64,000 nt of DNA from Nannobrachium achirus (Eukaryota > Chordata > Actinopteri > Myctophiformes > Myctophidae), in assembly GCA_963921795.1 (NCBI GenBank), contig OY997655.1:15021094-15085093 (forward strand). The letters run 5' to 3'. The translations under genes and the position numbers were made by a program. This document shows positions 1,841 through 63,225 of the stretch, one piece after another (positions within the stretch are counted from its first letter, which is position 1; each line of letters opens with the position of its first letter). The notes below the pieces were generated by a model. That model ran no database searches. It was given only the letters and a program-made list of their open reading frames with translations, and was not told the DNA's origin.

Positions 1841-2300
1841 TAGGGATGGGACGATAAGCGATATAATCGTTTATCGTGATAAAAAACACTCGTATCGTGG
1901 AGATTTAATTTATCGTGATGTCGTCCTCCGTCATGCACTGGGATCAATTCACCTTTTATTTGCCGAGCTGAATTTCTGGTACCACTTAAACCCTCTATAA
2001 TATTGGTAAAAGGTACATAATCGTCTAATCACAATTATTTCGCCATAAACGTTTCCATGTCGAGAAATGTTACATATAGTTTCAAACACTTTCAAACAGT
2101 AGTGGAAACAGTAGCAGATCTACTAGCTCACAGCACGTCAAGATGCTGATGCAAGATTGCAGATCGGTTATTTCCACTATACTACTAGTGTTTGAAACTA
2201 TATCAATATTCTTTTTTAAGTATAAAGTTGTCAACCGTGTCAGTCATTTCTTTGTATATATTTAGGTTGTGTGTCATATCTGCCATGTGCAGAGTCACTG
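1841..2300. mobile_element. Chimeric hAT-like MITE (two families joined)
   Basis: The left part (TAGGGATGGGACGATAAGCG through the CCACTTAAACCCTCTATAAT motif) is the TAGGGATGGGACGATA family, complete elsewhere at 56902-57304. At about 2010 it switches to interior sequence of the TAGGGCTGTCACG family (ACATAATCGTCTAATCAC, TTTCCATGTCGAGAAATGTT). It runs through a degenerate H1 palindrome (about 2112-2177) to that family's ATCTGCCATGTGCA segment. No right terminal repeat is seen. Confidence 0.65.
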
Positions 2301-2725
2301 TGTGTGTGACTCTGGGCAGTGTTTGATGTGGCCTTGCTGTTTGAAGTCATCCTGAAGAGGCCCTTGGGGGCCCCGGTCGGTCAGAGGGAGGACCAGAGCG
2401 CTCTTTGATGAGCAGGCCGGTCCAGGACACAAGGTGACCATGACATTCCCTGTCTCTCTGAAGCAGCTCCCATTCTTTATGCCCATCTCCCACTATTTGG
2501 ATCAACTGACACGTCCAATCATTTTCAACACAACGCAACTTGAGGCCATTATACCTTTACCTCAAGCAGGGGGGCTTGACATGAACTTTTTGAGGCACCT
2601 TTCCTTTGGACAAGTAAATTTCCCCTTCACTTGTCCGGGCACAAAAGTCACTTCGTCCGGATAAGAATTAGACATTTCACAGTAATGTATTTCTTAAATG
2701 CATGCATTAGGAGTCAGACATTGAT

Positions 2726-2858
2726 ATACTGTAAACTAACTAACTAACTAACTAACTAACTAACTAACTAACTAACCAACTAACCAACTAACCAACTAAC
2801 TAACTAACTAACTAACTAACTAACTAACTAGATAACTAACCAACTAACTAACTAAATA
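2726..2858. repeat. (TAAC)n microsatellite with variants
   Basis: Tandem CTAA units with interspersed CCAA variants over about 130 bp. Confidence 0.95.
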
Positions 2859-3248
2859 AACAAATAATAGGTATAGAATAAGAACAAAAGGACTGCTCCC
2901 TCCACCCTCCACTCCATAGTCAGTATAGTCTGCATACAGCACAAAGCTGCTAGGAACGTCACAGAAAAAGTGAAACCAAGAGCCACTGAAACCAAAAGTA
3001 CATTTTTAATGAGCTTGTCCGGAAGGATTCATTACTTCTCCCGGACAACGGGACAAGCCTTAACGTCAAGTCCTGAGTCACGCATTAAACCGAGGCTGCC
3101 TAGCGAGACAACAGGACAAGCCTTAACGTCAAGTCCTGAGTCACGCATTAAACCGAGGCTGCCTAGCGAGACTACTTTTTTCCGTAACCACTGTCAACCT
3201 GACATCCATACTTTGGGTAAAAAATCGAACCTCTGTTCGAAGTGGAGC

Positions 3249-3318
3249 TGTGTGTGTGTGTGTGTGTGTGTGTGTGTGTGTGTGTGTGTGTGTGTGTGTG
3301 TGTGTGTGTGTGTGTGTA
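3249..3318. repeat. (TG)n microsatellite, about 70 bp
   Basis: Pure TG run. Reading frames across it encode only CVCV or THTH repeats and are not genes. Just upstream, about 3042-3175, is a 60-bp near-identical tandem duplication (CAAGCCTTAACGTCAAGTCC twice). Confidence 0.95.
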
Positions 3319-3522
3319 TTGCAGTTGATGCTCAGGGCAGGCTAGACTCAACAGCACCTCTCTGGTCACCCAGGGTTACTACATACAGGCTACATACAGA
3401 CCCACAGACCCACCCACCCACATACCCACATACCTACACACACGGCCACGTATAGGGAGCTTGTGTTCCACACAGCTCCAAAAATAAATATATAAATAAA
3501 AAGAATCTAAAATAGCCTAACT

Positions 3523-3896
3523 CAGGGGTCGGCAAAGTTTTTGAAATGCAGTGCCATGTTTTAATTTTCTTGATAGTCAGTGTGCCATATCAGAATTTCG
3601 TTCAGTTATGACATCACGTCAAAATGGAATGTTTTATACAGATTTTTGATCCATATACAACCTTTATTTATTCTTTTTGTTTTACTTTAATTAACTTTAG
3701 ACTCAGCAATAACCTCACATATCCTCCCAGACTCCCTCACCAATTTGAATGAATGTAAAATGATGTGCAGAATGTAATTTGCAGATGTGAGGGGACTTAA
3801 AAACTCTCTCGCACTAAAGCCAGTGTGCCAGTGATCACCCTCCACTGTGCCAATGTTGGCACAGGTGCCTAAGGTTGCTAAGGTTGCCTACCCCTT
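3523..3896. mobile_element. hAT-like MITE, CAGGGGTCGGCAA family
   Basis: Left end CAGGGGTCGGCAAAG and a right end resembling its reverse complement (GTTGCCTACCCCTT). Flanks GCCTAACT and TCCTAACT match at 7 of 8 bases, fitting a hAT 8-bp target duplication. The interior repeats 'gtgcca' motifs and has no coding capacity and no H1 palindrome. Confidence 0.75.
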
Positions 3897-4428
3897 TCCT
3901 AACTACACGCTAAAAACATGTTGCTTGCAACACATTGTATGTAGTTCAGTTATTTTCTCTAGTGGTAGTAAAACAAAGTATATACTTGTAGGATTTAAGT
4001 TGTGGGTCCATTTGTATACTCTGAATGTAATCATTGCTGTAGTAGAGTGTTTGTTCAGTCTCAAAATACATTTTCAGGTCAGGATACCAATTTTGTCCAA
4101 TCAGGAAAGAGAACCTCACTAAGCTCATTCATCAGCTCCAATCTATATAATGTTTTAAGTTCCAAATTGTCTGCTTATCTTTTTTTGTTTCACCACTTCC
4201 AATTTCACTTGTTAATCTCGCATCCTGTATGTATCAGCTCTCCCTCTCCTGAATCCTGATTGGATTACGTAACGTTGGTATCCATTCCCAACCTGAACAT
4301 TCATTTTGTTTACTAAAGAGTTGAGGTTGGACCTGTTACTGAACAAACACACTATCGTTGCTATCAGAATATAGAGCAATTTAACACTAATTTTACCCCA
4401 AAAAGATTGAGTATAGACTAGAGTAGAC

Positions 4429-60967: not shown

Positions 60968-61921
60968 TTAGTCATGAAAGTCCTGGAAATATTTTGAAAT
61001 TAGAAAAGAAATACAAATCCAGTCCTGGAAAAGGTCTTCAAATGTATCAAGGGCCCTGGAAGGATATTTGGCTATTAGTCTAGTAAATCTAGGGAAAAAA
61101 TACACTCAGGTTGGACAAAATTGTATTATTTAGTTTTTCAACTGATTCTGTTAGGAAATTAGGTCTACTAGCCAGGATAAAAAAATCTACCATGATCTGC
61201 TCACTGCAAATACCCACAGTGGCCAAATCAAGTTGGGCTCCCATCGACTTTCTATACAGGAGGAAAATACCCAGAAAAAGAATCAGCTTTAAGTAGGATG
61301 TGAGGGGTCTAACTAGGGGTTTGTCATGATGCTGAATCCATTGCAAGCATTTATTTTGCACAAAAAACATTCCTTGGGCTAAAAATGGCCCCAGAAAATG
61401 ATGGTTTAGTGATGAAAAGTGATGAGTCATCAAAAAGATCATCTTTTGTTGGCGTTTTCCGGGGCCAATGAATGTTTTTTGTTGCTGCAGATTATGGTAG
61501 ATTTTTTATCCTGGCTAGTAGAGCTAATTTCCTAACAGAATCAGTTGAAAAACTAAATACAATTTTGTCCAACCTCTGCCTTAATTTTATCGGACTATAT
61601 GCATTGTTTTGGGCTATTGCGTTTGTTAATAAAATAAAACATTTTCCAAAACATGTATAACATTACACGAAATATGTAACGTAAGTCATTATCTGCCGAA
61701 CATGCTGCAGACGTGACAGAAATAAGACTTACAAGCTCGCAATGTGCTGCAGCCTGATCCTATGCCCTAGGATAGGTGGGGTAACAAAAAAAATGTAATG
61801 GGCATTGCACATAATAAGAGACTCATTTCTGCGCCGAAAGATTGTTATATAGGCTTTGAAATTGCGTTAAATATTGTGGAAACGTTTTGGAAATTCATTG
61901 GTGAAATTGTGTGGGAACCCT
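60968..61921. mobile_element. CAGGGTTCCC-family MITE split by a long-TIR element
   Basis: AGTCATGAAAGTCCTGGAAA and the right end GTGTGGGAACCCTG belong to the family seen at 51880. The insertion 61109-61574 and further sequence separate them. Confidence 0.65.
61109..61574. mobile_element. MITE with TIRs of about 85 bp
   Basis: GGTTGGACAAAATTGTATTA continues through CAACTGATTCTGTTAGGAAA to AAATCTACCAT. The same is found inverted at about 61490-61574 (ATTTCCTAACAGAATCAGTT ... ACAATTTTGTCCAACC). 466 bp, non-coding; superfamily not clear. Confidence 0.8.
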
Positions 61922-62017
61922 GACTCAAAGATGAGTTAATCTTGTATTCCCTCACAGCTTAGACCTGCATACTGTAAATCCTCAACAGCGACCTGTCGGA
62001 TATTCAAACAAGACACC

Positions 62018-62380
62018 TAGGGCTGTCACGATTATGACATTTTACATGACGATTAATTGTTACTCAAATAATTGCGATTAACGATTTAATTGTGTTTTTG
62101 TCGTTGACAATTACATTTCTGTTTGGCTTGTAGGCTTTGAAGTTGCACATGGTAGATATATGACACATAACCTAAATATACAAAGAAATGACTTACATAT
62201 TTGACAGATTTACACTTGAAAAAGAACCTTGGTAGTGGAAATAGCAGATCTACAAGCTCACAATGCGAACATTGAACATTTTTCAACATGGAAACGATTA
62301 TGACGATTGTGAAAAATAATCACGATTATGTAAAAAATAAATCACGATTAGACGATTATGTAATAATTGTGACAGCCCTA
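62018..62380. mobile_element. hAT-like MITE, TAGGGCTGTCACG family, 363 bp
   Basis: TAGGGCTGTCACGATTATGA to ATAATTGTGACAGCCCTA with exact 8-bp duplication AAGACACC (62010-62017, 62381-62388). Half H1 at 62237-62266. Reference copy of the family. Confidence 0.95.
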
Positions 62381-62439
62381 AAGACACCTGTTGTGACACT
62401 AATATTTCTTTGCTGTAAACCTTGTATGTCCAAAAATGG

Positions 62440-62515
62440 AAAATAGCAGGTCTACAAGCTCAAAACACGTCACGACGAAGACACGTGAGATTGTAGAACG
62501 CCTGTTTCCCTACCT
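62440..62515. repeat. H1 palindrome in decayed GCACCCC-type DNA
   Basis: GGAAAATAGCAGGTCTACAA and GATTGTAGAACGCCTGTTTC, with AACCTTGTATGTCCAAAAAT upstream as in the GCACCCC family. Confidence 0.65.
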
Positions 62516-62838
62516 TTGTGTGACACTATTGTCTCAAAGTAGTAGGGCATTACTTTATGTGGAAAAAAAGTTGAAATGTGGAGCTTTCTGTCTGACAGCA
62601 ACAATATGCCAATATGCGAGGTGAGATAGAACGTGAAGCATTTTCGACAAACCTTATTCTGTTTATGTACAACAAATACTCTTGTTTTTATTTATTTTAT
62701 GTTGACACTAAAAGTGAAGTTTACACCCGTGCAAAGCTATAATGGAACAGTTATTTTATATTGGTACCGTAATTGTTGCTTTTTTCCTTGCCATTTAGGC
62801 CAGAACGCAAATCTGTGTCACTTTAGATTTGAACCGCT

Positions 62839-63225
62839 TTAACCATTATTTTATGCTTTAACTATTGAAAAATAGCAGATATACCAAGCTCCCAAGCTTG
62901 TAGATCTGCTATTTGAATATTTTTTTACCCGATTCTATAAGTGTCTTCTAAATCCTTCTTCTAAATCAGTGCTTCTCAAACTCAAGGACCCCCAAAATTA
63001 CATGTATTTGGCCGCGGACCCCCCATCTCAAAATATGTTGTTCCAGGGACCACCCAGAAGCAAATATTTGAGTTACAAATGTTCGCTTTTAAAAAGATGT
63101 AGACAAAGACAAGATTTTTCAAAAATAGCAGATCTACAAGCTCACAATGTGGCACTCGGTGCCACGTTGTGAGCTTGTATTTCAATAGTTAAAGCATTAA
63201 ATAATTTTAGGCCTAAATGGTTTAA
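62839..63225. mobile_element. TTAA-bounded MITE with two H1 palindromes
   Basis: TTAACCATTATTTTATGCTT to TAGGCCTAAATGGTTTAA. H1 at 62868-62915 (short inner stem) and 63117-63180. TTAA at 62839-62842 and 63222-63225. Confidence 0.8.

Follow-up and report, generated by a model that had tools for sequence, protein, structure and literature searches.

Why do transposons with different ends share one short hairpin? The question is raised by a 64,000-nucleotide stretch of the Nannobrachium achirus genome (assembly GCA_963921795.1, contig OY997655.1, positions 15,021,094 to 15,085,093; hereafter the window), in which an earlier note had described a palindromic repeat, H1, inside hAT-like miniature inverted-repeat transposable elements (MITEs) of unrelated families. 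It touches on an open question of the field: by what means non-autonomous elements attain 10^5 copies, and whether the sequence between their ends plays a part. We consider it probable that H1 is the conserved core of abundant MITEs that became nested in hAT elements and were co-amplified with them, and that it possibly acts in cis. The sharing of H1 across hATs is best explained by repeated nesting and co-amplification; the sequences demonstrate nesting at one site, and other sites support it.

A genome-wide hairpin repeat

The H1 arm query was AAAATAGCAGATCTACAAGC (20 bases), and matches in the window were counted at up to 5 mismatches in 20. There are 98 such matches (48 on the plus and 50 on the minus strand), whereas 20 Markov shuffles gave 0–3 each. 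The matches fall into 68 loci, of which 30 are two-armed and 38 one-armed, about one locus per kilobase; at a stricter cut-off of up to 4 mismatches 59 loci remain, so that the previously reported number of about 60 full or half copies is borne out. Across the 1.66-Gb genome (564 contigs), the exact arm 20-mer occurs 149,964 times (74,844 on the plus and 75,120 on the minus strand), while the reversed-pattern control gave 0. The comparison sample consists of twenty 10-kb stretches from 18 contigs, placed at round coordinates; in three of the stretches part of the sequence is N. Counting arms with no more than 4 mismatches, the sample contains 111 and the window 85, i.e. the window is enriched about 2.3-fold. 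H1 is thus a genome-wide repeat, in which the window is rich.

Identity among 194 oriented arms from the window and the sampled stretches is high inward from the arm's first A and drops toward background just outside it. A 51-bp arm spacing, found in 41 of 94 two-armed placements, gives a 71-bp hairpin with a 34–35-bp stem and a 3-nt loop. Predicted DNA folds of four hairpins have energies of −42 to −48 kcal/mol (z about −15). One complete copy is:

31703..31773, plus strand: complete 71-bp H1 hairpin, folding into a 35-bp stem and a 3-nt loop

Covariation was analysed in 36 of 41 hairpins, with a near-copy (L002) and four M3-type or M3-like hairpins omitted (M1 to M8 denote the element families found around H1). 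Of the aligned cells, 90.2% are paired, and both-sided changes occur in 19 of the 35 pairs; a recurrent internal mismatch, A opposite C, is unpaired in 14 of 36 rows. The covariation score is 0.231 versus 0.130 in shuffles that ignore relatedness among the copies (0 of 500 as high) and at most 0.075 in slid versions; further pair types are less striking (42 versus 37.3 shuffled, 9 of 500). Changes between families are symmetric on both arms, and the variants are family-specific. The covariation supports a hairpin that has probably stayed a hairpin, without proving function.

Nesting of H1-bearing MITEs in hAT hosts

Elements with an 8-bp duplication (up to one mismatch) and terminal repeats beginning CAG or TAG were taken as hATs. 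Eleven lie in the window, and eight of them carry H1:

17982..19034, plus strand: hAT element CAGTGGTTCTCAACC; duplication TTATGCAG/TTATACAG; H1 at 18117-18164 (M5) and an unrelated palindrome at 18274-18910
20965..21264, plus strand: hAT MITE CAGGGGTCTTCAAC; duplication CCCTACAG; M1-type interior with a shortened H1 at 21112-21149
23875..24343, plus strand: hAT element CAGGGGCGTCACACC; duplication TTCCCACC; M3-type interior, with an H1 arm close to either end
30761..31230, plus strand: hAT MITE CAGTGGTGTAAAGTAC; duplication CTCTAGTG/CTGTAGTG; H1 at 30960-31020 (M6)
42211..42670, plus strand: hAT MITE CAGGGGTTTTCAAA; duplication CTATAGAC/CTATAGAG; M2 at 42393-42565 with arms at 42438 and 42462 (shortened hairpin)
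56902..57304, plus strand: hAT MITE TAGGGATGGGACGATA; duplication CTGTACAC; interior M8, an M1 relative, with a shortened H1 at 57149-57186
58047..58442, minus strand: hAT MITE of the CAGGGGTTTTCAAA family; duplication GATTAGAG; one M2-type H1 arm at 58177
62018..62380, plus strand: hAT MITE TAGGGCTGTCACGATT; duplication AAGACACC; one H1 arm at 62238 (M4)

These eight have seven terminus types (CAGGGGTTTTCAAA occurring twice), and five more H1-bearing types were found outside the window (CAGTGTTTTTCAACC, CAGGGGTCAGCAACCC, CAGGGACGTGCTGGCC, CAGAGCCCTGCAACGG and CAGTGGTCCCAAAACA), in keeping with the earlier note's count of at least seven. One type on its list, GCACCCC, was not found as a terminus; the motif lies inside the CAGGGGTTTTCAAA family. 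Nor does H1 sit strictly at the hAT centre, as had been described: its position ranges from 0.32 to 0.65 of the length in 11 complete elements, a twelfth entry being cut at a nested insertion. In 25 further stretches (L009–L033), 24 elements fitted the same definition, 11 with and 13 without H1; L030:6063-6443, counted among them, is no hAT but the interior of an M3-type element. Random intervals of the same length hold an arm in 44% of cases in the window and 20% in the stretches, which makes the hAT excess about two-fold. A fold-back origin of the hATs was rejected, since the left and right parts of the 12 entries have no long inverted homology beyond their ends and those of the nested element.

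Reading outward from H1, we assigned 155 of 259 arms to flank families and left 104 unassigned. What the families share mostly extends beyond H1, and the earlier statement that they have little else in common does not hold: several share a larger module with ends of its own. M2 is about 257 bp long, extends from CGTCGTTGTCGGG to GACG and contains H1; its inverted ends measure 37–38 bp (two copies tested alone). Direct repeats flush with both M2 ends were sought in 12 copies and comprise at least four bases in seven (ATTT in one), two bases in two and none in three. M2 was read inside hATs with four terminus types (CAGGGGTTTTCAAA, CAGGGGTCAGCAACCC, CAGGGACGTGCTGGCC and CAGTGTTTTTCAACC, the last without M2's left end) and also at places with no recognised hAT. 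M1, of about 190–205 bp and with TTAACCACTTGAACC ends, sits in the CAGGGGTCTTCAAC hAT family, and its relative M8 in TAGGGATGGGACGATA. M3 has TTAA ends with H1 near each of them, which agrees with the earlier description of TTAA-bounded elements. The copies in the window are:

33729..34005, no strand assigned: M2 element lying in CAGGGGTTTTCAAA-type hAT sequence, with CGTC..GACG-type ends and ATAT on both sides; full-length H1 at 33813-33883
26614..26810, plus strand: M1 element bounded by TTAA on either side (TTAACAACTTGAACC / TTAACCACTTGAGC); H1 at 26659-26717
13587..14056, plus strand: M3 element TTAACCACTTTAACC ... AAATGGGTTAA; H1 at 13626-13681 and 13942-14012
28513..29113, plus strand: M3 element TTAACCCATTTAG ... 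ACGGGTTAA; H1 at 28576-28646 and 29004-29052
62829..63225, plus strand: M3 element with a degenerate left TTAA (reads TTGA); H1 near each end (62869, 63122)

A TTAA target duplication is thus seen for M1 (the ends of 26614-26810, and a break at TTAA in 40 of 40 scored places, see below) and for M3 (two window copies). It is not seen for M2: the site for which empty copies are known has ATAT, and another has ATTT. After the TTAA, M1 reads CCAC and M3 CCCA or CCAC, which differs from the CC[C/T]T terminal motif given in PMC2872659. Exact 25-mers occur genome-wide 47,616 times for the M2 type and 39,842 times for the M3 type (controls 0). The 71-bp H1 is present in loci assigned to M1, M2, M3, M4, M5, M7 and M8; different ends are shown among these families for M1, M2 and M3 only. 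As a case of reverse nesting, a hAT (CAGGGGCGCTGGAA, duplication CTCAGTGC, 59532-60120) lies between the arms of an M3-type H1 (59491, 60139).

For the empty-site test, hAT flanks joined without the insert served as query; the query is itself the empty form, so no filled-to-empty ratio can be derived. Joined CAGGGGTTTTCAAA flanks without M2 matched uninterrupted at 40 of 40 scored places (91–95% identity; 746 candidates). Empty copies of this hAT are common, and empty siblings of the element at 42211..42670 were fetched from elsewhere in the genome. All ten fetched empty copies have a single ATAT; among the three filled copies that were aligned, ATAT stands on both sides of M2 in two, and ATGT plus ATAT in one. 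The left side of the filled copy at window position 33.7 kb aligns poorly with the empty copies. With the joined CAGGGGTCTTCAAC flanks, none of the 40 scored places (788 candidates) spans the join: the alignments begin at query bases 59–63, where TTAA occupies 61–64 (one further row, the 41st, is a shorter second match). The scored part of the CAGGGGTCTTCAAC family carries the M1 insert, with its boundary at TTAA. One CAGGGGTTTTCAAA copy (L004) holds M1 at a TTAA, with one boundary that aligns cleanly to the empty copies and one that does not; a single hAT family is thus known empty, with an M2 insert and, at a different site, with M1.

The M2 empty site and the M1 break at TTAA indicate that nesting with co-amplification explains the sharing of H1 across hATs. 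The claim of one interior shared across transposon types therefore stands in part: H1 does cross types, but the mobile unit is the whole H1-containing MITE, as the terminal repeats, 4-bp duplication and empty site of M2 indicate. H1 would be the hairpin core of non-autonomous DNA transposons with their own ends, i.e. M1 and M3 (TTAA), M2 (ATAT) and diverged relatives, which would have inserted repeatedly into dispensable interiors of hAT MITEs. hAT copies with working ends, presumably mobilized by hAT transposases, would then have been amplified with the passenger inside, and unrelated hAT families would come to appear to share H1. The interiors M4, M5, M6 and M7 may be older nested copies with decayed ends, and H1 may have been held constant among the inner families through an action in cis during amplification (e.g. 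as a cruciform or binding site). For annotation, the warning is that a carried-along MITE can falsely unite unrelated hAT families by a shared interior.

Conservation of H1 and rival explanations

Relations among the inner families were judged by eye from anchored alignments of flank consensuses, in which 26 of 276 pairs had p ≤ 0.01. M1 groups with M8, and with M3 mainly via the terminal repeat; M7 and a diverse set called X go with M2; the placement of M4, M5 and M6 is weak. For H1 to be common to differently ended inner families, the simplest reading would be descent from one source with a conserved core.

To compare H1 with its surroundings we used 25 M2 copies, 12 picked by their ends, 13 by a flank match around an H1-sized gap and none by H1 identity. 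They differ from the M2 consensus at 75 of 1,563 sites in H1 versus 452 of 4,170 in the flanks; H1 divergence is under half that of the flanks, and H1 is the less diverged in 22 of the 25. Within H1, the two stem segments stand at 0.03, the loop at 0.07 and the two edges at 0.06–0.08; the overall value of 0.048 is still under that of the terminal segments (0.055–0.10). Stem changes are double-sided in 8 cases versus 44 single-sided. Correction of one arm by the other as a cause of the low divergence was rejected on this ground, double-sided changes being few; a simpler reading is that the flanks of the source elements changed in the course of time and H1 was held. What is unusual, once nesting is taken into account, is a hairpin core that is common to differently ended, abundant MITEs and that in M2 is better kept than the element's own ends.

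Several results weigh against parts of this account. (i) As to nesting, the sequence-level empty site concerns a single host site (M2 in CAGGGGTTTTCAAA); no empty M1 site was seen among the scored CAGGGGTCTTCAAC copies (40 of 788 candidates), none was seen for M3, and M4, M5, M6 and M7 yielded no inner ends. A general search for TTAA pairs around H1 gave 7 distinct elements in 161 loci versus 4 in 161 random ones, i.e. near control. At least one M1/M3-type end lies near H1 in 49 of 231 loci versus 115 of 1,000 random positions, and complete pairs are rare (2 of 231 versus 4 of 1,000). (ii) As to common descent, no pair linking M1 or M3 to M2 stood out in the flank alignments, and their ends and duplications differ. 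(iii) As to a function in cis, AT-rich flank segments (0.22 and 0.19, the others being 0.055–0.15) inflate the flank divergence of M2, and in a cruder comparison the divergence of H1 was about the same as that of the flanks. M1 and M3 copies agree with M2 on divergence, but they were selected partly by H1. Finally, four of the 12 fetched H1-less M2 copies (L057, L059, L060 and L064) share one deletion junction; they may be an H1-less M2 subfamily that still spread, and hence a possible counterexample to a strict need for H1.

H1 crosses element types even once nesting is accounted for. It could be asked whether H1 is a transposase-independent amplification module, a cruciform that raises the copy number of any carrier (TTAA-type, ATAT-type or hAT); we rate this as unlikely. 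If true, different superfamilies would have kept H1, and hATs that captured it would have out-multiplied those without.

The earlier note had also proposed a tiny mobile hairpin. On this reading H1 would insert into palindromic MITEs, or take the place of their apex, and so spread between transposon types without their ends. M1/M3 and M2, with TTAA and ATAT respectively, clearly share only H1, the drop in identity at the arm's outer end is sharp, and each family has its own short palindromic extensions beyond H1, all of which would suit such a hairpin. These extensions are inverted, however, whereas simple insertion would leave direct repeats, and the H1 variants are family-specific. Copies without H1 do exist, as the note had asked, but they look like palindrome deletions, mostly ragged, rather than H1-free ancestors. 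With a query of M2 without H1, roughly 24 of the 40 places scored are matched across the join, and 11 of 12 fetched copies retain H1 remnants; for M4 the join is spanned at about 10 of 40, with remnants in six of six. Among these 18 copies only one M2 copy (L058) keeps none and is a candidate precise absence. L030 has two H1-less CAGTGGTTCTCAACC-type copies, one probably a duplicate of the other, in which GTGAAAACAGC or GTGAAAATAGC is left. On balance we think a self-mobile hairpin improbable.

It is somewhat less probable still that H1 is kept by host selection or genome-wide homogenization (e.g. as a putative protein-binding or small-RNA hairpin) and not by transposon amplification. The lower divergence of H1 than of its flanks in dispersed M2 copies would fit, but 38 of the 68 window loci have only one recognisable arm, the variants differ by family, and an Rfam scan of the window returned no family at the gathering threshold.

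Also suggested at first was a hotspot of recombination or template switching; that H1 acts in this way, exchanging halves of MITEs among families, appears very improbable. The hairpins are predicted to be strong in the four cases folded, deletions are frequent, and one fold-back (38338-39170) contains the left part of a TAGGGCTGTCACG element twice, inverted, each time ending in half an H1. Yet flank chimeras across H1 were not found among the 46 of 81 two-armed loci in which both flanks could be assigned (35 unjudged): 43 have the same family on both flanks, and the three mixed loci look by eye like misassignment or a related subfamily. The absence of flank chimeras among the judged loci and the mostly ragged H1-less deletions together support neither a template-switch hotspot nor a self-mobile hairpin. 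Descent of all H1-bearing hAT families from one H1-bearing ancestor whose termini diverged is hardly credible despite the 8-bp duplications and CAG/TAG ends common to all, given that M2 occurs in hATs with four kinds of ends, that the CAGGGGTTTTCAAA family exists without an insert, with M2 and with M1 elsewhere (the M2 empty sites already contradict it, and the earlier note was right that the hATs need not have one ancestor), and that H1 is absent from 3 of the 11 window elements and from 13 of the 24 found in L009–L033.

Neighbouring features and known systems

Besides these elements, the window contains two G-protein alpha subunit exons on the plus strand (9429-9635 and 44264-44641, the second with G-alpha-13 as its best PDB match), and some of the window is therefore likely to be intronic. 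An element at 17523-17784 has 52-bp inverted ends (TGGGAGAGTGTTTT) and an 8-bp duplication (TTCTTATT), with no listed H1 arm at up to 5 mismatches. At 61127-61559 a pair of 58-bp inverted arms, 98% complementary, lies 317 bp apart.

Genome-wide, 116 matches to PF13843 (piggyBac-type transposase) were scored of 952 candidates. Many lie in open frames of 500–600 amino acids, and groups of equal score occur on several contigs, which suggests that piggyBac-type transposases may have been active recently. In the 1.2-kb flanks on both sides of six matches we found no TTAA terminal repeats. All six have at least one H1 arm (up to 6 mismatches) within about 1 kb, to which we give no weight because arms abound throughout the genome (111 in 200 kb, counting those with up to 4 mismatches). 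Plentiful as piggyBac-like genes are, the flanks read at these six matches pointed to no autonomous partner, and we draw no conclusion from them on an autonomous source of H1. In L038, a unit of about 670 bp that contains M2 and an old M1-type H1 is tandemly repeated beside a piggyBac-like gene.

Angel-like elements have TTAAAGG-type ends. The palindrome at 18274-18910, nested in the H1-bearing hAT 17982-19034 and unrelated to H1, has 300-bp arms (97% complementary) and TTAAAGGGATATTACAC near its end; we take it to resemble Angel, with ends of the TTAAAGG type. H1-bearing MITEs resemble the reported case of Angel inside Tol2 (PMC8151067) in that a palindromic MITE is nested in a hAT. They differ in that their ends are other and many hAT families are involved.

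The V domain, reported as common to short interspersed nuclear elements (SINEs) and the MER6 MITE (PMC6887750), is similar as a short conserved module that moved into another transposon class and was amplified there. It is, however, SINE-derived, and the abstract does not describe it as the hairpin core of MITEs (PMC6887750).

A literature search with four 14-mers of the H1 arm returned no related paper, and the closest precedent found, with no other close one, is the CMITEs of Acropora. These are described as several TTAA MITE families with differing terminal repeats and a common conserved 75-bp interior (PMC2872659). The interior is more conserved than the ends, and the authors suggest a role in transposition, its origin being unknown (Wang et al. 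2010, PMC2872659); it is by analogy with this interior that we propose a cis role for H1. The likeness lies in an interior of similar length (71 bp in H1, 75 bp in CMITEs) that is conserved across differently ended families, and it is drawn by description, not by sequence. Compared with the CMITE interior as reported, H1 is a covarying hairpin, occurs also in the non-TTAA M2 and is nested in many hAT families. Their numbers differ too: about 1,600 CMITE copies were estimated for A. millepora (PMC2872659), versus 149,964 exact H1 arms here. One short hairpin common to differently ended MITEs, at this scale, makes the question of whether interiors matter testable.

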